This document shows, piece after piece, positions 13,757 to 26,126 of a stretch of 53,184 nucleotides of DNA. The notes under the pieces are model-generated. The model was not told the DNA's origin. It did not search any database and saw only the letters and a program-made list of their open reading frames with translations. A program made the position numbers and the translations under genes. Source of the stretch: Bacteroidota bacterium (GTDB lineage: Bacteria; Bacteroidota; Bacteroidia; Bacteroidales; Prolixibacteraceae); NCBI GenBank assembly GCA_024278975.1, contig JAJRSD010000112.1, positions 1 to 53,184 on the forward strand. Reading direction: 5' to 3'. The first letter of the stretch is position 1, and the number at the start of each line of letters is the position of its first letter.

Positions 13757-15070
<1,314 letters not shown>

Positions 15071-15071
15071 G

Positions 15072-15106
15072 AGCCCCCTCCTAACCTCCCCCGAAGGGTG
15101 AGGAAT
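15072..15106 (+). repeat. CCTCC-rich stop-codon repeat, copy 1
   Basis: AGCCCCCTCCTAACCTCCCC, then a GAAGGGTGAGGAAT arm that can fold back on it. It begins 2 bp after the enolase stop. Related copies lie at 31452-31483 and, on the minus strand, 39604-39642, each at the stop codon of the gene it follows and in the same sense. Confidence 0.8.
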
Positions 15107-15133
15107 AAGAGAAAAAAATAACAGATAAAAATT

Positions 15134-15167
15134 AAAGCCGTTTTTCTTTATGAAAGACGGCTTTTTA
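15134..15167 (+). terminator. Intrinsic terminator after eno
   Basis: AAAGCCGT pairs with ACGGCTTT, extended by TTTC/GAAA, and is followed by TTTTTATTT. Confidence 0.85.
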
Positions 15168-15291
15168 TTTGGGGAATACTCGATAAATTTTCAGTAGCAG
15201 TGGACAGAGAGATGGAATTCTTTTTTTTCAACCGCTGTTTGAGCAAAAGAAAGAAAGTTTTCAATGGCAGTCGCAGACATCCTGACTTAGT

Positions 15292-15405
15292 GTAAAATAA
15301 CTTGTCGTAGAAATAAGGTAATATGGTTGTGTAGGCTATTGAATTTAATTTTCCTACTAAGGTTAAAGGTTTAAATATAAGGTTTTTAGCATTAGAGGAA
15401 AATCA
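15292..15405 (+). repeat. Dispersed repeat, copy 1 (TTGTCGTAGAAATAAGG element)
   Basis: Shares CTTGTCGTAGAAATAAGG, a GGTTGT, then CTAAGGTTAAAG and TTTAAATATAAGGTTTTTA with 39265-39365; the middle has diverged and is about 12 bp longer. It holds no open reading frame of note. Copy 2 has a right arm that folds back on the left end; this copy does not. Confidence 0.75.
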
Positions 15406-15433
15406 AAAAGGATGCTATCGCAATTTGCAAAAA

Positions 15434-15478
15434 AAGGATGACATCTTTTTCTACTCAGAATAGAAAGATGTCCTCCTT
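15434..15478. other. Strong hairpin
   Basis: AAGGATGACATCTTTTTCTA pairs with TAGAAAGATGTCCTCCTT around a short CTCAGAA-type loop, with one or two mismatches. It has no T-run on either side, so it is more likely a DNA element or RNA structure than a simple terminator. Confidence 0.6.
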
Positions 15479-15496
15479 ATCGAAAAGTGTTTTTTT

Positions 15497-15673
15497 GTTA
15501 CTACTCAGCAGCACAACTTAAATATAAAGCATTGGTCGCTATTCCGTTTTGTTATGATTTTTGTTTAAGAAAAACAAAAATCTCGCCAAAACCACTGACT
15601 CTCACAACATTTACCCCCAAGCTAAAGCATAGGGTTATTGATAATCAAAACTTTAAATCTGCTGAGCAGTAAC
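15497..15673. mobile_element. MITE-like element with 15-bp terminal inverted repeats
   Basis: GTTACTACTCAGCAG at 15497-15511 and CTGCTGAGCAGTAAC at 15659-15673 are inverted repeats matching at 14 of 15 positions. They are flanked by the direct repeat GTTTTTTT (15489-15496 and 15674-15681), which may be a target duplication, although it is low complexity. Inside is a hairpin GATTTTTGTTT/AAACAAAAATC. The right end lies against the stop codon of the minus-strand TPR gene. A 61-codon open frame fills the element but looks accidental. Confidence 0.5.
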
Positions 15674-15680
15674 GTTTTTT

Positions 15681-16931
15681 TTACTCCTCAAAAAACAGAT
15701 CTTCCTTTATTTTTTTAATACGGTCGAATGCGTAATTTACGTTTTTATCCGATTCGTTTGCCTCTTTTAAATATAGGCGATAATAGTTAAGTGCCAGAGT
15801 TTTATTCGAGTTAAACTCTTCGTAAGTTGTGGCAATCTCAAATAGTATTTCATAATTCCCAGGATTGAGTTTATTTGCTTTTTGCAAGGCTTTTATCGAC
15901 TCGGCGAACTTTCGTTGCTGACCAAGTATTTGCCCCAAATGATGATACATATCGCTCACATAATCTGGTATCGAAGCATCAATTGCCCATTGCATCATCT
16001 TTTCCGACTCCTCAAAGTTTTTCAACTTTTTAAAGCATAAACTTTTATAATACATTACTAAAGGGTCGTTTGGATTTATCGTAAACAGTTTATTAAAAGT
16101 CTCCAAAGCGTCCTCTTCAAATCCGGCAAAATATGTACTTATTCCATAATTCATTAGAACTTCGTATGATGGAGCATTCTCAATTTTCAGATATTTTGCA
16201 AAACTTATCATGGCCGGTCCATATCTTTTACTTCTAAAAAAATAATACGCACGCTCTAATATTAGTTCTGCATCGTTGGGAAATTCGTGGAGTCCTTTCC
16301 CAATTAAAACCATAATTTTACTCCCCTCTTTTTTCCAGTTATACGAATGTATTAAGTTTCCATAAGTTCCATAATCGCGAGGGTTTACCTCGAGCACATT
16401 CTCGTATAAATAAACTGCTTGTTTTCGTTCTCCAGTCCGAAACGAACAATATGCCAGTTGTTTGTTCCAATAAATATTGGTTGAGTCTTTTGTATAGATT
16501 CTGCTAAAAACTTCGTATGCCTCCTTATATTTTTTCTGATTGATATAAACCCTGCCAAGTTTCCCCGATAGCGGAAGATTATCGGGCTCTATTTCCAATG
16601 CTTTTTTATAAAAGTTAACAGCATCGGTATTATTTCCGAGAATTGACAATCCTTCAGCCATTTCACTTAAAACTTCAGTATTATCAGGTTCAATCTGCAA
16701 AGCTTCAGAATACGATTTTAACGCCGCCTGATATTTTTGAAGTCGGTTAAAAATTAATCCCTTTTTAAAATAAAGTTGCGCCGAAGGATTTTTATTTAGC
16801 TGAGTTTCAATCTCGGTTAACGCCTCTTTATAATTTTTATTAAGAATCAGCAAATCAATTTCATCTTGCGAATATGAGAAAAAAGAGATACCAAAAAGGA
16901 TAATAACTAACGAGTGTTTAATGGCTTTCAT
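15681..16931 (-). CDS. Exported TPR-repeat protein
   Basis: A 416-residue protein starting at the Met before KAIKHSLVII, which gives a proper signal peptide ending FFSYSQ. The rest is about ten TPR units (KYQAALKSYSEALQIEPDN, NTDAVNFYKKALEIEPDN, KFAESIKALQKANKLNPGN). Such proteins scaffold complexes in the periplasm or at the outer membrane. No partner is indicated, and it is separated from the next minus-strand gene by about 120 bp of palindromic repeat. An upstream ATG at 16952 would place extra residues before the signal peptide and is less likely. Confidence 0.8.
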   Translation of the reverse strand: MKAIKHSLVIILFGISFFSYSQDEIDLLILNKNYKEALTEIETQLNKNPSAQLYFKKGLIFNRLQKYQAALKSYSEALQIEPDNTEVLSEMAEGLSILGNNTDAVNFYKKALEIEPDNLPLSGKLGRVYINQKKYKEAYEVFSRIYTKDSTNIYWNKQLAYCSFRTGERKQAVYLYENVLEVNPRDYGTYGNLIHSYNWKKEGSKIMVLIGKGLHEFPNDAELILERAYYFFRSKRYGPAMISFAKYLKIENAPSYEVLMNYGISTYFAGFEEDALETFNKLFTINPNDPLVMYYKSLCFKKLKNFEESEKMMQWAIDASIPDYVSDMYHHLGQILGQQRKFAESIKALQKANKLNPGNYEILFEIATTYEEFNSNKTLALNYYRLYLKEANESDKNVNYAFDRIKKIKEDLFFEE

Positions 16932-16947
16932 GGCTTTTATTTTAAAT

Positions 16948-17030
16948 ATCATTCCCGCGAAAGTGGAAATCCTCTCAAAATTTACTATCCCACTCTCATT
17001 GAAAAGATTCCCGCCTGCGCGGGAATGACA
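16948..17030. repeat. Pair of inverted TGAC-palindromes
   Basis: TTCCCGC-CTGC-GCGGGAA followed by TGACA at 17008-17030, and an inverted, imperfect partner (ATTCCCGCGAAAGTGGAAAT) at about 16950-16969. Same architecture as the hairpins at 1003-1125: a 7-bp stem, a 4-5-nt loop and TGAC outside. Confidence 0.65.
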
Positions 17031-17052
17031 TACTTTTTTAAAGTTTTATGCT

Positions 17053-18495
17053 TTATTTTTGAAGTACAAAATTAATAGGAATAGTATAACTTACATTTAC
17101 AAACTGCCCTCTTTGTTTCCCGGGTTTCCATTTTGGCAAACTATTTACAACTCGTAAAGCTTCTGCATCAAGCGAAGGATCGACACCACGGGCAATGGAT
17201 GCATTTGCAATACTTCCATCTTTTGTAACAACAAACGAGACATAAACTTTCCCCTGAATTCCATTTTCTTGTGCAACTATAGGATAATCAACAGCATTTG
17301 CAATATATTTTCTTAATGCCAGTTCACCTCCGGAAAAGTCGGGCATCTCTTCTACAATAAAAAATATTTCAGAGCCATCGTCCAATGTCTTGGGGTAAAC
17401 AACTTTTGAACTTTTTACCACCTCATTTTCAATAATATTCATATATGTAATATTATCCTCATCTGAAACATTAATGGTTAGATGTTTATTTCTCAAAAGT
17501 TCTTTTACTGTCGCCATTGCATCTTCTCCGGTAATAGTAATTTGTTTTTCACCGATACTCAATACAATTGTCTGTTCAGTTGTAACTTCGTCTGTATCAA
17601 CCGACTCTTTTTGCTCGCAAGCAAAGGCAATTACAAGTACTGCCGCTACTAATATTCCGAAAGTAATTTTTGTAATTGCCAGTTTTGAAGATTTTATTTT
17701 TGACATCATTTTAATTCTATTTTTAATTAATGAATAATTGAAGCTGTTGGCAATAATAAGTTGACCACCAACAACCTGATTTAATAATAACTTTTTATAA
17801 TATCCGGGATTTACACCGGAAACGAGAACTGCCTGATCGGCAAGGAATTCATGATTTTCGCGAATGGCACGGCGCAACATCCACATAAACGGATTAAACC
17901 ACTGAAACACAGTTAAAAGTTCGAGAATAATTACATCGAAAGTGTGCCCCTGTTTTATATGTTCCAGTTCGTGCGTAATCATCCTGTCGTACCCTTCAGA
18001 GTTTTTAATTGAACGACCAACAAAAACATAATCTAAAAACGAAAACGGACTAACATCTTTTTCCAAAACAATAAGTTTAAATCCATCCAGTTTTTGAACT
18101 TTATTATTTCGAACTAATAAAGTGAGTTGAATCACCCGAAACAGAAACCTTCCAAAAAAAATCAAGACTCCCGCCAAATAAGCAAAAATTAATAAATTGG
18201 TTGAAAGTATTGCCTGCTCGACATTGCCCGAAATATCGTGACTGTAAATAGTTGCAACCTCCAATAGGTTACGGTAAGGAGTTACGGTAATTTCGGCAAG
18301 CATAACTGATTTAGGTGCAAAAACCTTGAATTTCAGAAAAGGCAGAATTACTGAAAACATAACCGAACCCAATAAAAATATTCTGTTTAATTTAAAGAAA
18401 GTCTCTTTTCTCAAAAAGAAAATATAGATTATTGCAAGCAACGAAATGCTCACACCCGACTCTAAAATAAAATTCACCGTGCTATTCATCTTCAA
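17053..18495 (-). CDS. BlaR1/MecR1-type M56 membrane metallopeptidase with TonB C-terminal domain
   Basis: A 480-residue membrane protein. Helices lie near residues 8-25, 38-55 and 93-115, then the M56 zinc peptidase site HELEHIKQGH near residue 190 with a downstream E-N-H-E-F-L-A-D-Q-A. A further helix is at about 275-292. The C-terminal 95 residues form a TonB domain (AQENGIQGKVYVSFVVTKDGSI, WKPGKQRGQFVNVSYTIPINF). BlaR1 proteins sense a ligand outside and cleave the BlaI repressor inside. Here the penicillin-binding sensor is replaced by a TonB domain, a common Bacteroidota variant. The gene overlaps blaI by 14 bp, so the pair is coupled. Confidence 0.85.
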   Translation of the reverse strand: MKMNSTVNFILESGVSISLLAIIYIFFLRKETFFKLNRIFLLGSVMFSVILPFLKFKVFAPKSVMLAEITVTPYRNLLEVATIYSHDISGNVEQAILSTNLLIFAYLAGVLIFFGRFLFRVIQLTLLVRNNKVQKLDGFKLIVLEKDVSPFSFLDYVFVGRSIKNSEGYDRMITHELEHIKQGHTFDVIILELLTVFQWFNPFMWMLRRAIRENHEFLADQAVLVSGVNPGYYKKLLLNQVVGGQLIIANSFNYSLIKNRIKMMSKIKSSKLAITKITFGILVAAVLVIAFACEQKESVDTDEVTTEQTIVLSIGEKQITITGEDAMATVKELLRNKHLTINVSDEDNITYMNIIENEVVKSSKVVYPKTLDDGSEIFFIVEEMPDFSGGELALRKYIANAVDYPIVAQENGIQGKVYVSFVVTKDGSIANASIARGVDPSLDAEALRVVNSLPKWKPGKQRGQFVNVSYTIPINFVLQK

Positions 18496-18868
18496 CAGAT
18501 TTATCGTTTTCCAAATCGTGCTTTACATCTTTTATTAACTCATCTAAATCAGACAAACTCATATTATCCTCTCTGGCAAAAAACGAAACCATCTCCTGAA
18601 AAGAGCCGCTGAAATAGTTGCTCATAAAGTTTTTCATATAAGTTCCGGTGTACTCCTTTTTCGAAATCAGAGGAAAATACTCGTGTGTTTTTCCGTATGC
18701 ATTGTGCCCCACAAAACCTTTCCTTTCAAGAATACGAATAATTGTAGAAACTGTATTGTATGCAGGTTTTGGAATTGGCATCTGTTCAATAATATCTTTT
18801 ACAAATGCCTTTTTCTGTTTCCAGAGAAGTTGCATTATTTGCTCTTCTGCTTTTGTTAATTCTTTCAT
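18482..18868 (-). CDS. BlaI/MecI/CopY-family transcriptional repressor
   Basis: A 128-residue winged-helix repressor. The start MKELTKAEEQIMQLLWKQ is the standard family start; an in-frame ATG 54 bp further upstream would add unconserved residues. The DNA-binding part spans residues 1-75 (PAYNTVSTIIRILERKGFVGH is the recognition region) and a dimerisation part follows. BlaI dimers bind short inverted repeats and are removed by proteolysis by the partner M56 protein, whose gene overlaps this one. Five AACTAA-N4-TTAGTT dyads lie 150-350 bp upstream and are the likely operators. Confidence 0.9.
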   Translation of the reverse strand: MKELTKAEEQIMQLLWKQKKAFVKDIIEQMPIPKPAYNTVSTIIRILERKGFVGHNAYGKTHEYFPLISKKEYTGTYMKNFMSNYFSGSFQEMVSFFAREDNMSLSDLDELIKDVKHDLENDKSVEDE

Positions 18869-18931
18869 GTGTTTATAAGTGTTTGTTTTTAATGGTAACA
18901 CATGGAACTCGCCAATAATCATGCTCCTGTG

Positions 18932-18947
18932 TATAAAAACTTTTATA
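18932..18947. promoter_or_regulatory. Dyad in the blaI leader
   Basis: TATAAAAACTTTTATA, a near-perfect dyad about 65 bp upstream of the repressor start. It could be part of the promoter or another binding site; nothing more can be said. Confidence 0.35.
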
Positions 18948-19019
18948 TGCTCGTTTCATTTTTCTTTTAGATTTAAAAATTTGAGACATGAGTATTGAGA
19001 TAACAAAAACCATGCCTTT

Positions 19020-19220
19020 AACTAATTAATTAGTTAATAAACTATTGTTTTAGTTAATTAGCATACTTTAAACTTTTTAAATTAAACTTAAAACTATCTT
19101 GGATATCCGGCACAAACATATAACTAATATCTTAGTTTTCCAACTAAATCCTTAGTTAGTTGCTGACAGAAGCCTGTATGAATTTGATTTACTGATTCTT
19201 ACACAACTAATTAATTAGTT
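19020..19220. promoter_or_regulatory. Five-site operator array AACTAA-N4-TTAGTT
   Basis: Perfect dyads AACTAA-N4-TTAGTT occur at 19020-19035, 19122-19137, 19142-19157 and 19205-19220. A fifth with one mismatch (AACTAT) occurs at 19040-19055. The first pair starts 20 bp apart (19020/19040) and so does the second (19122/19142), placing neighbouring sites about two helical turns apart. The outer two sites extend to 20-bp perfect palindromes (19018-19037 and 19203-19222). They sit between the divergent BlaI-type repressor and the porin operon and are most simply the repressor's binding sites. Confidence 0.75.
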
Positions 19221-19426
19221 GTAATTAAAATTATCTGATATATATTTCTGATGTTTGGAACAATTAATATTTTCTAAGAATAATATCAGCTTAATTAAAA
19301 CGATTAATATCACTCCTATTTCTGTTTTATTACATTAACATTTTTCATACGTGGAATAGTGTAAATTCATTCTAATTTGAAATTAAAATAAATAAGGGGT
19401 TTTGAACATTAATTCATAACAATTCG

Positions 19427-19457
19427 TTTGGCAAAACTTATAATTCTATTATTTTTG
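19427..19457 (+). promoter_or_regulatory. Promoter of the porin-paaK operon
   Basis: TTTG at 19427-19430 and TATTTTTG at 19450-19457 with a 19-nt gap match the Bacteroidota vegetative promoter (-33 TTTG, -7 TAnnTTTG). The transcript would begin near 19464, giving a leader of about 127 nt that contains a GC-rich segment around 19513-19547. The box lies 207 bp to the right of the last AACTAA dyad. Confidence 0.65.
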
Positions 19458-19590
19458 CTGTCGATATGTTAAATATAAAAAAATATTTTCACCTTTTATA
19501 TTTCTTTTTTATACGCCCGGGGTGCTAATTCTTTCATCTCGGGGGCAATCAATTATTTATTAAAACATCAACTAATCAAAACTATTTTTA

Positions 19591-20880
19591 ATGAAAAAAG
19601 TAATTTCATTTGTTTGGATATTTTGTATCCTCACAATTTCATCTTATTCTCAAGAGAAAAAAGAGAGTTCATCAAAACCATCGATAAAATTGTATGGTTT
19701 TATTAGAAACGAGTTTTATTACGATTCGTACAAAGGTTTAACCGCAGCGATGGATAATTTCTATTTGGTTCCGTTATATAAAGGAACTGATGGTAATGGT
19801 AACCACATCAACCAACAAGGTATTGCCAACCTCACAGCAATGGCAACACGATTTGGCATGAAAATTACAGGCCCTGAACTATTTGGAGCTAAATCATCCG
19901 CCAATATCGAAACTGACTTTGCAGGTATAGTAACCGAATATCCTGAAGTACTCAGAATAAGGAAAGCATTTATTAAACTCGACTGGGAGAAATCATCTCT
20001 TTTAGTAGGCCAAACCTGGCATCCGTTATGGAATGGCAGTGGTGCATTTTTTCCCAGAGTAGGCGGACTTAATACAGGAAGCCCGTTTAACCCATTTAAC
20101 AGATCGCCACAAATTGATTTCGATTACCGTATTGGAAAAGTAACTTTATCGGCAACAGCACTTTACGAACAACATTATACCTCGAAAGGTTTTTATCCTG
20201 TTCCCAATACAAACAGTAAAAATCTTGCAAAAAGAAATGCTGTAATTCCGGAAATGGTATTGGGGCTTTATTATAACTCAAACGGATTAAGTCTGGGTGT
20301 TGCCGGTCAGTATAATGCAGTAAAACCTATCGATGTTACTACAGGCAGCGATGGAAAAAGCTACACTACAAACGAACTAAACACCAGTTTAATTGGAATG
20401 GCGTATGTTGGTTATAGTAAAAACAAACTTTATATTTTGGCTAAAGGACTGGTGGGACAAAATATGGTGAACTTAACAATGTTTGGTGGCTACGGTGTAA
20501 AAGACTATAATACTACTACCGGAGCGATGACTTATACAAATTATAATAACTACTCGGCTCTGTTTAATATACTTTACGGTAAGAAATTTCAAGTAGGTCT
20601 GTTTACAGGAATCTCAGGAAATATGGGAACATCTGATCCTCTGTATAATTTCCCTGAATCGGGAGCAAAAATTGCAGGTTTATTAGCCAGCATAAAAAAT
20701 GTATATCGGGTTGCCCCACACATTGCATATAATATTAAAAATATTAATCTTGTTCTTGAATACGAAATGACCTCGGCAGATTATGGTAGTGGTACATTTA
20801 ATTTCGATGATGGTTTATATGCCGACAAAGTAAACGCAACAAACAATAGACTATTTTTAATGGTAATGTACCATTTTTAG
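19591..20880 (+). CDS. Outer-membrane porin-like beta-barrel
   Basis: A 429-residue protein with signal peptide (KKVISFVWIFCILTISSYSQ) and alternating beta-strands to a C-terminal aromatic residue (MVMYHF). It resembles DcaP-like porins of proteobacteria and Bacteroidota (IKLYGFIRNEFYYDSYKG, FGMKITGPELFGAKSS, LVGQTWHPLW). Such porins pass small, often aromatic, acids. The next gene begins 3 bp after its stop, so it is the first gene of an operon with phenylacetate-CoA ligase and a sodium symporter, which suggests it admits the same substrate. Confidence 0.75.
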   Translation: MKKVISFVWIFCILTISSYSQEKKESSSKPSIKLYGFIRNEFYYDSYKGLTAAMDNFYLVPLYKGTDGNGNHINQQGIANLTAMATRFGMKITGPELFGAKSSANIETDFAGIVTEYPEVLRIRKAFIKLDWEKSSLLVGQTWHPLWNGSGAFFPRVGGLNTGSPFNPFNRSPQIDFDYRIGKVTLSATALYEQHYTSKGFYPVPNTNSKNLAKRNAVIPEMVLGLYYNSNGLSLGVAGQYNAVKPIDVTTGSDGKSYTTNELNTSLIGMAYVGYSKNKLYILAKGLVGQNMVNLTMFGGYGVKDYNTTTGAMTYTNYNNYSALFNILYGKKFQVGLFTGISGNMGTSDPLYNFPESGAKIAGLLASIKNVYRVAPHIAYNIKNINLVLEYEMTSADYGSGTFNFDDGLYADKVNATNNRLFLMVMYHF

Positions 20881-20883
20881 GAA

Positions 20884-22200
20884 ATGATGAAAGAGTACTG
20901 GCAGGAAGAGTTAGAGGTTTCGAGTAGGAGCAGTCTGGAAAAACTTCAGATTGAACGACTGAATAAAACCATTGAATATGCAATTCAGTCTCCTTATTAT
21001 AATAAGCTATTTAACAAAAAAGGTATTTCGCCCGGCTCAATAAAAAATATTGCACAAATACAAGACTTGCCATTTACAACAAAGCAAGACTTGCGTAATA
21101 ATTTTCCCTACGGATTTTTAACACTTCCAAAAAAAGAGATTATTCGGTTACACAGTTCAAGTGGTACAACCGGCAATCCAACCGTAATTTTTCATAACAG
21201 GCACGACATAAATTCGTGGGCAAATTTAATGGCACGCTCGCTATTTTGTGCAGGAGTTCGCGACACCGATGTATTTCAAAACATCAGCGGGTACGGACTA
21301 TTTACAGGCGGACTTGGCTTTCAATACGGAATTGAAGCACTCGGATGTTTGAGTATTCCGGCCGGTGCCGGAAATAGCAAACGCCAGATTAAACTGATGC
21401 AAGACTATGGAACAACGGTTGCACATGCAATTCCAAGTTATCTCGGGCGACTTTATGAAGTTTTCGAGCAGGAGAATTTAGACCCGAAAAAAAACACTCA
21501 ACTACATACTTTAGTTATTGGTGCCGAGCCACACACCGAGGAACAACGCCAGCGAATTGAAGCAATGTTTGGAGTAAAAGCATACAATTCGTTCGGACTA
21601 TCGGAAATGAACGGTCCCGGTGTTGCTTTCGAGTGTACCTACCAAAGCGGATTACATATTTGGGAAGATGCATTTTATGTTGAAATTATAGATCCCGAAA
21701 CTTTGCAACCTGTGCCCGACGGCGAATATGGCGAGTTAGTAATGACAACACTCGACCGCGAAGCGATGCCGCTGATAAGATATCGTACCCGTGATATTAC
21801 CCGAATTATTCCTGGAAAATGCAAATGTGGAAGAGTACACCGGCGTATCGACAGAATTACCGGGCGCACCGACGATATGTTTATTATTAAAGGCTGCAAT
21901 GTTTTCCCAATGCAAATTGAAGGTGTTTTATTAAAAATACCTGAAGTTGGCTCCGACTACTTAATTACACTCGAAACGGTTAACGACGTTGACGAAATGG
22001 TTGTTGAAGTAGAAGTAAAACCAAATTGGTTTAGTGGAGATATAAGAAAATTAGACCAGCTAACAAAGCAAATTACAACACAAATAAGAGACGAAGTTCT
22101 GGCAAAGCCAATTGTAAAACTAGTTGAAAAAGGCTCTATTCCACGCGCAGAAGGAAAAGCTGTTCGTGTTGCCGATAAACGAAATAATGGGTTAAAATAG
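20884..22200 (+). CDS. paaK: Phenylacetate-CoA ligase
   Basis: A 438-residue adenylate-forming enzyme of the PaaK family, making aryl-acetyl-CoA from acid, ATP and CoA. Motifs are the P-loop-like SSSGTTGNPTV near residue 97, NSFGLSEMNGPGVAFEC near 238, the YRTRDITRI hinge near 298, a CxC pair (KCKCGRV), and the C-terminal domain with GRTDDMFIIKGCNVFPMQIE. In Bacteroidota this enzyme commonly activates phenylacetate or indoleacetate made in amino acid fermentation. The porin, ACT protein and symporter around it argue that it activates an imported aryl acid. The substrate is inferred, not shown. Confidence 0.9.
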   Translation: MMKEYWQEELEVSSRSSLEKLQIERLNKTIEYAIQSPYYNKLFNKKGISPGSIKNIAQIQDLPFTTKQDLRNNFPYGFLTLPKKEIIRLHSSSGTTGNPTVIFHNRHDINSWANLMARSLFCAGVRDTDVFQNISGYGLFTGGLGFQYGIEALGCLSIPAGAGNSKRQIKLMQDYGTTVAHAIPSYLGRLYEVFEQENLDPKKNTQLHTLVIGAEPHTEEQRQRIEAMFGVKAYNSFGLSEMNGPGVAFECTYQSGLHIWEDAFYVEIIDPETLQPVPDGEYGELVMTTLDREAMPLIRYRTRDITRIIPGKCKCGRVHRRIDRITGRTDDMFIIKGCNVFPMQIEGVLLKIPEVGSDYLITLETVNDVDEMVVEVEVKPNWFSGDIRKLDQLTKQITTQIRDEVLAKPIVKLVEKGSIPRAEGKAVRVADKRNNGLK

Positions 22201-22267
22201 ATGATTACTAAAATTACAGGTTACAAAAAACTCGAAACTTTAAACTCTAAATTTTAAACTAAAAAAT

Positions 22268-22699
22268 ATGGCATACGAAGTTTCTATTTTTCTTGAAAAT
22301 AAAATTGGCCACTTCGAGCGAATTACACAAATCCTCAAAAAGAATGAAATAAATATTCGCACGATGTCTATTAACGACACATCAAACGGATGGGGTATTT
22401 TAAATCTTTTGGTAAACAACCCACAAAAAGCGTATAAAGCTTTGGAAGCGGAAGGTGTTTCGGTTGCACTAAAAGAGATTATTGCGTTGGAAATGAAAGA
22501 TGAATCGGGCGGACTGCATGATTTATTACTCAAAGTTGCACAGGCAAAAGTAAATTTCAACAATGCAAACGGAAGAATAATTCAGGAGACAAAATCGGCT
22601 ATTCTTATTTTAGATGTACCGGATATTGCCGATTCGCAAAAGAAACTCATGGAAAATGGATTACAGATTTTAGATGATGAAAAAATATATGGAAATTAA
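22268..22699 (+). CDS. Tandem ACT-domain protein
   Basis: A 143-residue protein made of two ACT-like halves (AYEVSIFLENKIGHFERITQIL at the start and a second unit from about residue 75). ACT domains bind amino acids or related ligands and regulate partner enzymes. Stand-alone tandem ACT proteins next to paaK are common in anaerobes that ferment aromatic amino acids. It lies 67 bp after paaK and 18 bp before the symporter's small subunit. Confidence 0.8.
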   Translation: MAYEVSIFLENKIGHFERITQILKKNEINIRTMSINDTSNGWGILNLLVNNPQKAYKALEAEGVSVALKEIIALEMKDESGGLHDLLLKVAQAKVNFNNANGRIIQETKSAILILDVPDIADSQKKLMENGLQILDDEKIYGN

Positions 22700-22717
22700 C
22701 TTTAAAAATTAAATATT

Positions 22718-22897
22718 ATGTTTGGAATAAACGACCCTGCGATTTACCTTGGTTATTTAATGGCAATTATTAGTTTAATAGCCTGTATTGTTTATGGCAT
22801 TATTAACTGGAACAAAGGAATGGAAGACAGTCTGGACGAGATTGAAAAAGACCTTAATTGGGAGGATAAAGAAGAACAGATACAAAACGAAATTTAA
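22718..22897 (+). CDS. Small subunit of a sodium/solute symporter
   Basis: A 59-residue protein with one membrane helix (YLGYLMAIISLIACIVYGII) and an acidic tail (DSLDEIEKDLNWEDKEEQ). This is the shape of the small accessory protein encoded just before SSS-family symporters in many anaerobes. It ends 9 bp before the symporter start. The start at 22718 is the only ATG giving this arrangement. Confidence 0.8.
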   Translation: MFGINDPAIYLGYLMAIISLIACIVYGIINWNKGMEDSLDEIEKDLNWEDKEEQIQNEI

Positions 22898-22906
22898 ACC
22901 TTAGTT

Positions 22907-24493
22907 ATGAATACATTTACATTAGGATTTATTGTGGTAATTTACCTTTTGGCAATTACTTATTTGGGATATTTGGGATATAAAAAAACCAAGACTGCAC
23001 GAGATTATCTTCTTGCCGGTCGCGATATTCACCCATTTGTAATGGCAATGTCGTATGGAGCAACGTTTATTTCAACATCGGCAATTATCGGATTTGGTGG
23101 AGTTGCAGCTATTTACGGAATGGGATTAATTTGGTTGACCGTATTAAATATTTTGGTCGGAGTTTTTATTGCATTTATATTTTTTGGACGAATAACCCGA
23201 AAAATGGGACACAACCTCGATGCACATACTTTTCCCGAATTTTTGGGAAACCGTTTTCAATCGAAAAGAATACAGATAATTAGTGGTGCAGTAATATTTA
23301 TTGCCATGCCTTTATACGCCGCGGTTGTATTAATTGGAGGTGCACGCTTTATCGAGAGTATTTTTGAAATTGATTTCTCGATTGCTTTAACATTTTTCTC
23401 ACTTATTATTGCAGCTTATGTAATTGCCGGTGGTTTAAAAGGAGTGATGTACACCGATGCACTTCAGGGATCTATAATGTTTTTAAGCCTTTTTTTCCTA
23501 CTAATATATTCGTATATAAATTTGGGCGGTGTAACTGCTGCTCACGAAGGACTTACAAATATGGCTAACCTAGTTCCCGAAAGTCTTAGCGCAAAAGGTC
23601 ATATCGGTTGGACAGCGTTCCCCAAAATTAATTCTGCCTGGTGGTGGGTTCTGGTAACAAATATTATTCTTGGTGTTGGAATTGGTGTTCTGGCACAGCC
23701 TCAATTAATAGTTCGGTTTATGACTGTTAAAAGTAACCGAGAATTGAATCGAGCCGTTATTATTGGTGGAGTATTTATTTTTGTAGCAACAGGTTTTATT
23801 TTTACAGTTGGAGCTTTATCAAACCTGTTCTTTTTTAACGAGTCGGGCGAACTTGCAATACAAGTTGCAAAAGGAAATATAGACTTAATTATTCCGGGTT
23901 ATATTCGTGCTGCAATGCCTGAGTGGTTTGTTTACATTTTCATGCTTGCACTGCTTTCGGCAGGGATGTCAACACTAAGTTCACAATTTCATACAATGGG
24001 AACTTCAATTGGACGAGATTTTATCGAAAATCTTTTTCCAAAGAAAAAAATCAATTCAATGTTAATTTCAAAAATTGGAATTATAATAGCAATTGGAGTA
24101 AGTATTATTATCGGATACCAACTTCCGGGAAGTATTATCGCACGTGGAACCGCAATTTTCTTTGGCATTAGTGCTGCAACTTTTTTACCTGTATATTTTG
24201 CCGCACTTTATTGGAAAAGAGCCACAAAAAAAGCAGCAACATGGAGTATTGTTTCGGGAATTGCAGCAAGTGCTTTTGCTCTAACATTTTTGCATGTTAA
24301 AGAATCGGCACCTCTTGGAATTTGTGATGCAATTTTTGGACAACCAACCCTTGCAACAAAATTTCCATGGATGATTATCGACCCAATTTTAATTGCAATG
24401 CCGATATCGATTATTGTTTTAGTGGTTATTACTTTTTTTACTAAAAAAATATCGGAAGAACATTTGGACAAATGTTATAAAGGGATTAAGTAA
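22907..24493 (+). CDS. Sodium:solute symporter (SSS family)
   Basis: A 528-residue membrane protein with about 13 helices. SSS-family features include the first helix followed by DYLLAGRDIHPFVMAMSYGATFISTSAI in pieces, GGLKGVMYTDALQG near residue 178, LAQPQLIVRFMTVKS near 262, and LLSAGMSTLSSQFHTMGTS near 350. It lies directly after the small accessory subunit and ends the porin-paaK-ACT-symporter operon; a strong hairpin follows at 24504. Substrate is not readable from sequence, but context points to an aryl carboxylate. Confidence 0.9.
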   Translation: MNTFTLGFIVVIYLLAITYLGYLGYKKTKTARDYLLAGRDIHPFVMAMSYGATFISTSAIIGFGGVAAIYGMGLIWLTVLNILVGVFIAFIFFGRITRKMGHNLDAHTFPEFLGNRFQSKRIQIISGAVIFIAMPLYAAVVLIGGARFIESIFEIDFSIALTFFSLIIAAYVIAGGLKGVMYTDALQGSIMFLSLFFLLIYSYINLGGVTAAHEGLTNMANLVPESLSAKGHIGWTAFPKINSAWWWVLVTNIILGVGIGVLAQPQLIVRFMTVKSNRELNRAVIIGGVFIFVATGFIFTVGALSNLFFFNESGELAIQVAKGNIDLIIPGYIRAAMPEWFVYIFMLALLSAGMSTLSSQFHTMGTSIGRDFIENLFPKKKINSMLISKIGIIIAIGVSIIIGYQLPGSIIARGTAIFFGISAATFLPVYFAALYWKRATKKAATWSIVSGIAASAFALTFLHVKESAPLGICDAIFGQPTLATKFPWMIIDPILIAMPISIIVLVVITFFTKKISEEHLDKCYKGIK

Positions 24494-24503
24494 GTAGCTA
24501 ACA

Positions 24504-24534
24504 TTCATGCTCTCACTTCCTGTGAGAGCATGAA
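24504..24534. terminator. Strong hairpin after the symporter gene
   Basis: TTCATGCTCTCAC and GTGAGAGCATGAA form a perfect 13-bp stem with a 5-nt loop, 11 bp past the symporter stop. There is no T-run after it, so it may be a processing or stability hairpin, not a classical terminator. Confidence 0.6.
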
Positions 24535-24545
24535 TAAATAAAATT

Positions 24546-24737
24546 ATGGACGGTAGAATAAGAAAAAATATAGAGGTGGGTTTTGAAGTGGAAATTACTC
24601 AAAAGCACCACCAGCAAACCGGCGAACTGACCAATGGATTTGTAAAACGAATTTTAACAAAATCGTCCAACCATCCGCACGGTATAAAGGTACTTTTAGA
24701 AACAGGCGAAGTGGGGAGGGTGAAAAAGATACCTTAG
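24546..24737 (+). CDS. YwbE family protein
   Basis: A 63-residue protein matching the YwbE (DUF2196) family: RKNIEVGFEVEI, KHHQQTGELTNGFVKRILT, HPHGIKVLLETGEVGRVKKI. It is a small beta-rich protein of unknown function, widespread and usually alone. The tandem 57-bp repeat begins 41 bp after its stop. Confidence 0.88.
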   Translation: MDGRIRKNIEVGFEVEITQKHHQQTGELTNGFVKRILTKSSNHPHGIKVLLETGEVGRVKKIP

Positions 24738-24778
24738 AAAGTGCTCAGTCGCAGTGTTCAGCCAATACTTACTGAAGT

Positions 24779-24890
24779 GCGACTGAAAACTGCGACTGCG
24801 ACTTTCTTTATGCGACTGCAACTCTATTTTTTTCTGCGACTGAAAACTGCGACTGCGACTTTCTTTCTGCGACTGCGACTCTCTTCTCTA
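24779..24890. repeat. 57-bp tandem repeat, two units (GCGACT-rich)
   Basis: Units start at 24779 and 24836 with the shared core GCGACTGAAAACTGCGACTG; smaller GCGACT motifs occur through both units and just before them. It lies between converging genes (ywbE and the HI0933 flavoprotein) and overlaps neither. Confidence 0.8.
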
Positions 24891-24893
24891 CAC

Positions 24894-26126
24894 CTACAAA
24901 CTATTCCCTGCCAGCCATCCTGTTGAATAAGCAATCTGCAAATTATATCCGCCGGTTTCTGCATCGAGGTCAATTATTTCACCTGCGAAATATAGCCCTC
25001 TTACAAATTTCGACTCCATAGTTTTTGGGCGTATTTCGTTGGTCGAAATTCCGCCGGCAGTAATTATTGCCTCTTTAAACGAGCGGCTGTGAGAAATATC
25101 GAACCGCAAATTTTTCATTAAATGTCTGATGCGTTTCCGCTCTTTCCCTGAAACCTGATGGCATGCTTTTTCAGGATCAAGTTCCAGCAATTCAATAAAA
25201 ACCGGAATCATTGAGGCAGGTAGCCAGCTTCTGAAAATATTGATTAGTTGTTTTTTTCCATGCTCATTTAAATCGCGCTGTAAACGTCTGTCAAGTTTTT
25301 GCTCATCGAGAGCAGGTTTTAAATCGACGGTAATTTCCACTTTCTGTTCATTTTGAAGTGCTTTTACCATAATCCTACTGAGCGTTAAAATAATTAGTCC
25401 CGACAAACCAAAATGTGTAAATATCATTTCGCCAAAAGCTTCGCCCGCTTTTTTTCCGTCAATCCAAACAACGGCTTTTACGTTTTTAAGATTTAAACCC
25501 TGTAATTTCTGTGCGGTGCTTCCTTTTGTTTCCACAGGAACAAGAGCCGGAATTGGTTTTTCTATTTTATGTCCCACTTGTCGCGCCAGTTCGTAACCGT
25601 CGCCGGTAGAGCCGGTTGCAGGGTACGATTTTCCACCGGTGGCAAGAATCACTTTTTCAGCTAAAAAAATCTCACCATAAGCACGAACACCTTTTATTGC
25701 ACCATCTTCAACCAGCAATTTTTCCACCCGGTTGCCGGTTCTTATTTCAACATTTAGTTCTTTTGTCCATTTTAAAAGTGCCTGCAAAATATCGGCTGAT
25801 TTATTGCTCGTGGGGAAATATCTGCCACCCCGTTCCAAAGTAACATCGACACCATATTTTTCAAGCAAATCGATAATATCTTGCGAAAAGAATTGCGAGA
25901 ATGCGTTGCGAAGAAATTTTCCGTTTGGAAAAACGTGGGTAATAAATTCGGGGATTGTGGCATTGTTTGTAATGTTGCAGCGCCCTTTCCCGGTGATTAA
26001 CAATTTACGTCCCTCGGCACGCATCTTCTCCAATATCAAAACATTGCCACCCAATTCGGCAGCTCTGCCGGCAGCAAGCAACCCGGCCGGACCGGCTCCT
26101 ATAATTATTACATTGTATTTTTTCAT
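24894..26126 (-). CDS. HI0933-family FAD-dependent oxidoreductase (BaiN-like)
   Basis: A 410-residue flavoprotein. The N-terminal Rossmann motif is IIIGAGPAGLLAAGRAAE, followed by LEKMRAEGRKLLITGKGRCNITN, a family signature. A middle ATGGKSYPATGSTGDGYELA and a C-terminal AGEIIDLDAETGGYNLQIAYSTGWLAG complete the FAD site. The family is broadly conserved (YhiN/BaiN); one member takes part in bile acid dehydroxylation, others are uncharacterised. The start three codons into the longer frame is chosen because the conserved region begins at KKYNVIIIGAG. It is monocistronic. Confidence 0.9.
   Translation of the reverse strand: MKKYNVIIIGAGPAGLLAAGRAAELGGNVLILEKMRAEGRKLLITGKGRCNITNNATIPEFITHVFPNGKFLRNAFSQFFSQDIIDLLEKYGVDVTLERGGRYFPTSNKSADILQALLKWTKELNVEIRTGNRVEKLLVEDGAIKGVRAYGEIFLAEKVILATGGKSYPATGSTGDGYELARQVGHKIEKPIPALVPVETKGSTAQKLQGLNLKNVKAVVWIDGKKAGEAFGEMIFTHFGLSGLIILTLSRIMVKALQNEQKVEITVDLKPALDEQKLDRRLQRDLNEHGKKQLINIFRSWLPASMIPVFIELLELDPEKACHQVSGKERKRIRHLMKNLRFDISHSRSFKEAIITAGGISTNEIRPKTMESKFVRGLYFAGEIIDLDAETGGYNLQIAYSTGWLAGNSL

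Follow-up and report, generated by a model that had tools for sequence, protein, structure and literature searches.

A conserved array of tandem dyads upstream of a BlaI-type repressor gene in Bacteroidia: a putative autoregulatory operator

We analysed a 53,184-nucleotide stretch of DNA (hereafter the window; contig JAJRSD010000112.1, family Prolixibacteraceae of the Bacteroidota) in which a BlaI-type repressor gene, a gene for an M56 metallopeptidase fused to a TonB domain and a TPR gene lie together on the minus strand, preceded by an array of inverted repeats. Beyond the array, the plus strand carries a porin-like gene (a name given in the preliminary description of this DNA; the product has no Pfam match) followed by genes for a PaaK-like ligase, an ACT_8 protein and a sodium:solute symporter. 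The features of the repressor operon and of the array are as follows.

15681..16952, minus strand: TPR protein (TPR families), third gene of the conserved operon
17053..18495, minus strand: M56 metallopeptidase-TonB_C fusion with a BlaR1-like protease half (PF05569 and PF03544)
18482..18868, minus strand: blaI, BlaI/MecI/CopY-type repressor (Penicillinase_R, PF03965), the presumed ligand of the array
19004..19014, minus strand: degenerate -7-like element CATGGTTTTTG following the proximal pair, where several relatives show TATAGTTTTTG or a similar sequence
19020..19035, no strand: downstream dyad of the proximal pair, perfect
19040..19055, no strand: upstream dyad of the proximal pair, one mismatch in the 12-base arms
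19101..19108, minus strand: recurring element GGATATCC, just downstream of the distal -7 element
19113..19120, minus strand: distal -7 element TATGTTTG (TAnnTTTG), 1 nt from the dyad and reading towards blaI
19122..19137, no strand: downstream dyad of the distal pair, in the -33/-7 spacer, a layout shared by relatives
19141..19143, minus strand: TTG resembling a -33 element, assigned to the distal promoter; in many relatives the linker has TTTG here
19142..19157, no strand: upstream dyad of the distal pair, overlapping the -33 TTG
19205..19220, no strand: fifth dyad, standing alone 63 bp from the distal pair on its upstream side with respect to blaI (putative auxiliary operator)

The product of blaI matches the Penicillinase_R winged-helix domain strongly (PF03965; 3.1e-32, 111.7 bits against a cut-off of 22.6) and also matches MecI (1okr) in a phmmer comparison (2.1e-13). 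The position aligned to the N-F bond at which the M56 proteases of bla and mec systems cut their repressors, N101/F102 in S. aureus according to the part of PMC9834060 consulted, reads F96-F97 and is invariant in 12 aligned sequences. A predicted structure of the repressor was poor (mean pLDDT 60, pTM 0.43); it was set aside and no contact map was drawn from it. The neighbouring protein matches PF05569 with 43.6 bits and has its HExxH motif as HELEH at residue 175. Pfam gave TonB_C and M56 domains only, with no beta-lactam sensor domain found on this protein, and the NCBIfam BlaR1 models fell far under their cut-off (33.9 of 400). The TPR gene belongs to a cluster with 18 members over the window and 20 compared regions, adjoining the M56 gene. 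BlaI-family matches were present in 54 of the 61 genomes searched, and a genome often has more than one: four in that of the window and between one and seven in genomes of its genus.

The array consists of four perfect AACTAA-N4-TTAGTT dyads and a near-perfect one, all within 19020..19220. They start at 19020, 19040 (the imperfect site), 19122, 19142 and 19205, with a start-to-start step of 20 bp in both pairs, exactly as first described. The half-sites recur every 10 bp and therefore all lie on one side of the helix. In many loci of the genus the outer half-sites of the proximal pair are ACCTAA and TTAGGT together, which fits a pair acting as one symmetric unit. In 16 of 22 genus loci an equivalent of the fifth site (0-1 mismatch of the 8-base core) precedes the distal pair by 61-64 bp, and in two more by 47 or 58 bp; among the four loci with none, G001 and G019 show one pair only before the contig ends.

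The perfect dyad occurs four times in the 4,651,077-base assembly, each time inside the array (mirrored control pattern, two copies), and the tandem form, allowing up to two mismatches in 24 positions, is found in that genome only as the window's two pairs (mirrored control, none). Because the perfect 16-mers and the 36-bp tandem matches of the genome all fall here, the cluster is not due to chance. Relaxed single sites behave differently: dyads with up to two mismatches number 11 in the window against 7.41 expected, a count that is not unusual by itself given that 9 of 100 shuffles reach it, and across the genome they are not enriched (636 versus 870 for the mirrored control). No regulon of further strict sites was found in this genome. 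A relaxed tandem search returned nine places (two in the control), four of which adjoin BlaI genes, namely the window's two pairs and two overlapping places at a BlaI paralogue (p76); the remaining five have no BlaI gene in their 3-kb stretch.

Promoters of Bacteroidota have the consensus TTTG at -33 and TAnnTTTG at -7. The distal promoter of the window reads TTG, 20 nt, then TATGTTTG, matching the layout of this phylum (TAnnTTTG about 19-20 nt after TTTG or TTG), and TATGTTTG is the sole minus-strand TAnnTTTG in 18861-19230. The same motif is found at the identical offset after the distal pair in 19 of 22 genus loci, and many relatives have the distal pair as TTAG-TTTG-AAAACTAA-N4-TTAGTT-A-TAnnTTTG, with the downstream dyad filling the gap between the two promoter elements; the proximal promoter of the window is degenerate. 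We also compared 67 arrays found through named BlaI relatives and 48 BlaI-adjacent stretches found through a DNA pattern (both described below). TAnnTTT lies up to 22 nt downstream of the array in 36 of the 67 (29 of them at the same offset), as against 14 of 67 in an equal length upstream, and it lies 2-3 nt past the last core in 29 of the 48 stretches, being absent from that place in the other 19. The -7 elements beside arrays mostly share one orientation, 29 reading towards blaI and one away in the named set, and 19 towards and two away among 30 arrays of the genus. Such a placement of the dyads relative to the -33 and -7 elements is typical of a repressor operator.

The sites can be compared with known operators of the family. 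CopR and CopY recognise cop boxes with the consensus RNYKACANNYGTMRNY, and two operators per promoter have been described (PMC7253601, as far as consulted). The array shares the 16-bp dyad register of these boxes, whose consensus allows six of the eight positions of the array half-site AACTAANN; it differs from them in that -3 is A, not C, and -2 holds no fixed A. Each of the four perfect sites carries the A at -3, which leaves it without the TACA-N2-TGTA core. The preliminary description had proposed a specificity different from those of BlaI/MecI and CopY, and this stands as regards the -3 base and the missing core, whereas the register turns out to be that of CopY. The staphylococcal mec operator contains ACTACATATGTAGT and hence ACTA-N6-TAGT in the same register. 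The consensus of the putative operator retains the 16-bp register of BlaI/CopY sites without the C of TACA. CopY carries a CXC copper motif at its C-terminus, which the 128-residue repressor of the window, having no cysteine, does not. In the bla and mec divergons of Bacillus licheniformis and Staphylococcus aureus, a BlaI-family repressor gene likewise sits beside an M56 protease gene, with several operators. For B. licheniformis, the portion of PMC3305447 consulted gives three operators, OP1-OP3, per control region and an OP1 oligonucleotide built on TTACATATGTAA, in which the C of TACA stands where the array has A. Autoregulation, a feature of those divergons, would be shared by the window. 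The array differs from them in its exact 20-bp tandem pairs and its TAnnTTTG promoter, and the locus differs in having no adjoining beta-lactamase gene and an M56 protein in which TonB_C takes the place of a beta-lactam sensor.

What is directly established is that the sites exist, are conserved, accompany BlaI genes and fit the promoter elements. With a 16-bp dyad register, a position before the repressor gene and several sites, the array has the traits of an operator, and we conclude that it is very probably the autoregulatory tandem operator of the blaI-M56/TonB-TPR operon, in which binding by BlaI, cooperativity, control by the protease and a signal are predicted parts. A BlaI dimer would sit on each 16-bp dyad, and two dimers 20 bp apart would be separated by about two helical turns on the same helix face. 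Since the downstream dyad of the distal pair occupies the spacer between TTG and TAnnTTTG, BlaI bound there would exclude RNA polymerase. The fifth site lies about six turns upstream and probably contributes to cooperativity or to a loop. An envelope signal would cause the M56 protease, with its C-terminal TonB domain, to remove BlaI and so turn the operon on.

The array recurs widely upstream of related repressor genes. A scan with a BlaI alignment yielded 591 relatives; the 80 best, with titles of Bacteroidota apart from two of Aminicenantes, were retained. These loci were fetched by the BlaI protein alone. In 66 of the 80, the 350 bp upstream contain tandem ACTA-N6-TAGT dyads with a spacing of 19-22 bp (up to three mismatches of 16), compared with 28 of 1600 mononucleotide-shuffled upstream regions; the tandem is missing upstream by the same measure in the other 14. 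The 20-bp step is conserved too: among the neighbour spacings of exact cores in these loci (up to 250 bp), 58 of 81 are exactly 20, and 36 bp occurs four times. Dyads at 36 bp as well as at 18-20 bp are seen upstream of the BlaI genes of L128, L139, L151 and L158, and the 36-bp spacing is a second geometry in some Cytophagales-type loci. An M56-like frame with a TonB_C-like domain, recognised by a small profile of our own, is present in 66 of the 72 named loci with enough downstream DNA.

The converse search used a DNA pattern of two ACTA-N6-TAGT dyads 20 bp apart and no protein information, across 395 genomes of the phylum. It hit 47 genomes (mirrored control, one genome), all drawn from the window's class (98 genomes), as against none of the 297 others, a restriction that concerns the tandem pattern only; the exact tandem pair was not found in 51 of the 98. 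Outside the window the pattern gave 52 array places, and 48 of these, spread over many families, have a BlaI-family gene in their 3-kb stretch, 46 of them with its open frame no more than 60 bp from the array. The assignment of the array to the BlaI-type repressor in the preliminary description is supported by this, as by the absence of any other perfect copy from the window's own genome. In the array of L199 (G321:C43:197184-197277), five ACTA-N6-TAGT dyads follow one another at exactly 20 bp, ahead of a BlaI gene.

Binding of the dyads by BlaI is itself deduced, and a different regulator might in principle bind them and merely control the blaI-M56 operons. The four places that have no BlaI gene in their 3-kb stretch (L195, L200, L205 and L236) include one before a permease gene and one between TonB genes, as this would allow. 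We nevertheless regard such a regulator as highly improbable, given the BlaI genes adjoining the great majority of the pattern's matches across many families, the agreement of the 16-bp register with that published for CopY (PMC7253601, in the part consulted), and the differing arms at BlaI paralogues of one genome, the pattern to be expected of repressors that each recognise sites of their own. At L195 (1501-1534) a tandem pair and then TATGTTTG precede a MacB/FtsX permease gene, a candidate regulon member. The pair of L200 (1501-1534), from another family, lies between two stand-alone TonB genes and is a candidate distant target, while that of L205, between HU-like and ribonuclease-G-like genes (both by eye), is perhaps a terminator.

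The three further BlaI genes in the genome of the window are each preceded by dyads stepped 20-21 bp, with arm letters of their own and ending at TAnnTTTG. Paralogue p76 has three weak ACTA-type dyads with a 20-bp step, p77 (L077 2028-2083) has three AACTGA-type dyads with 20-bp steps ending at TATGTTTG, a putative variant specificity, and p78 (by eye) has three dyads of about 17 bp with a 21-bp step. Because the stepped dyads of the paralogues differ in their arms, they argue that each repressor would read its own array. We also compared the -3 base with the recognition helix at 82 array loci (A in 57, T in 5, mixed in 20); the bases follow lineage and the counts are uncorrected for kinship, and a recognition code is not claimed.

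The preliminary description had further proposed that the array, lying between the repressor genes and the porin-paaK-ACT-symporter operon, could control the latter as well, as a divergent region common to both. The porin gene of the window is indeed divergent, starting 371 bp beyond the last dyad, but in relatives the array stays with blaI: porin-paaK flanks it in none of the 17 relatives' regions read. Porin matches are present in 33 of 37 genus genomes, and of 11 loci fetched besides that of the window, two of them cut at a contig end, the nine with upstream DNA have no exact core dyad. Moreover, the -7 elements adjoining the arrays read towards blaI, and on the plus strand 19001-19590 contains a single TAnnTTTG, at 19450, which lies 230 bp past the array. 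Shared control is very unlikely on these grounds, and we reject the link. The otherwise AT-rich porin leader has a GC-rich stretch at 19510-19550 (plus strand) with no Rfam match, and Rfam gave no match across 15000-26000 as a whole.

Tandem pairs with up to two mismatches are found in 95 of 140 genomes of the family (mirrored control, none). Within the genus, blaI is immediately preceded by one tandem pair. The positions of both pairs could be established in 20 of 37 genomes, the rest being not read that far or cut by contig ends, and in 17 of these 20 the second pair is found some 0.5-1.7 kb farther upstream, the interval holding stand-alone TonB genes (TonB_C was confirmed by Pfam in the between-pair genes of three examples). 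In the window, G022 and G026 the pair starts are 102-120 bp apart, with nothing between. Two close pairs with no gene between are also found in a sister genus, where the pair starts are mostly 142-146 bp apart, and two close pairs occur in other genera of the family as well. Beyond the array, genomes of the genus mostly have a carbon-nitrogen hydrolase gene (Pfam, one example) and an alcohol dehydrogenase-like gene (by eye), pointing into the array.

These arrangements bear on how much of the array still works. The distal part could once have driven stand-alone TonB genes that the window no longer has, leaving the array partly a relic with only part of it active. The TonB genes between the pairs of most relatives and the degenerate proximal -7 element of the window would fit such a loss; however, the distal pair retains perfect arms and a consensus -7 element, and the close pairs of the sister genus, which have no intervening gene, mean that the compact double array may be ancestral. 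We consider a partial relic possible, if somewhat doubtful, and it would be compatible with the array being the operator of the blaI operon.

The genes between the pairs in those 17 genomes hint at TonB supply as an output of the system, although the window itself has no TonB gene there. In the genus an operator pair precedes one to three such genes, whose C-terminal domains mostly share 52-73% identity with the corresponding domain of the window's M56 protein, with a few lower values. According to one table row in PMC10470040, a Porphyromonas gingivalis BlaI-family gene, with an M56 gene at the neighbouring locus tag, is lower with excess hemin, as is hmuY (LFC -1.74). From the gene neighbours in one genus, one further locus and this row, one may speculate, in a scheme rather unlikely to hold as it stands, that BlaI/M56-TonB serves Bacteroidia as a homeostat of TonB supply. 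Here the TonB-like portion of the M56 protein would compete with TonB for outer-membrane receptors, and when receptor demand exceeded TonB the protease would be switched on, BlaI cleared from the tandem operators and more TonB made.

BlaI regulators beside M56-TonB genes are known in Bacteroidota and form the same gene pair as in the window. Our searches of openly licensed papers gave no operator, signal or output for these systems, nor did they turn up the consensus, the strict 20-bp tandem over the -33/-7 spacer, its spread within the class or the TonB link; the parts are of known kinds. An operator that can be found by a plain DNA pattern allows prediction of the genes under each BlaI copy, and gives a way into a widespread system with a possible connection to the nutrient-import machinery, the array pointing to TonB supply among its outputs. 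A further suggestion is a way in which a repressor of the BlaI family could be rewired from TACA-N2-TGTA to ACTA-N6-TAGT, with the register kept and paralogues having variants of their own.

Finally, two minor elements recur in the leaders. The sequence GGATATCC just downstream of the distal -7 element is present in 8 of 22 genus loci, and GGATATYC, sought in 10 loci of the sister genus, was found in all of them (nine as GGATATCC, one as GGATATTC); the copy at 19101-19108 is possibly a second operator or a leader element. In L046, L052, L056 and other sister-genus loci, a recurring T run stands before TTTGTC or similar between the two pairs, and may act in the leader as a terminator or attenuator.
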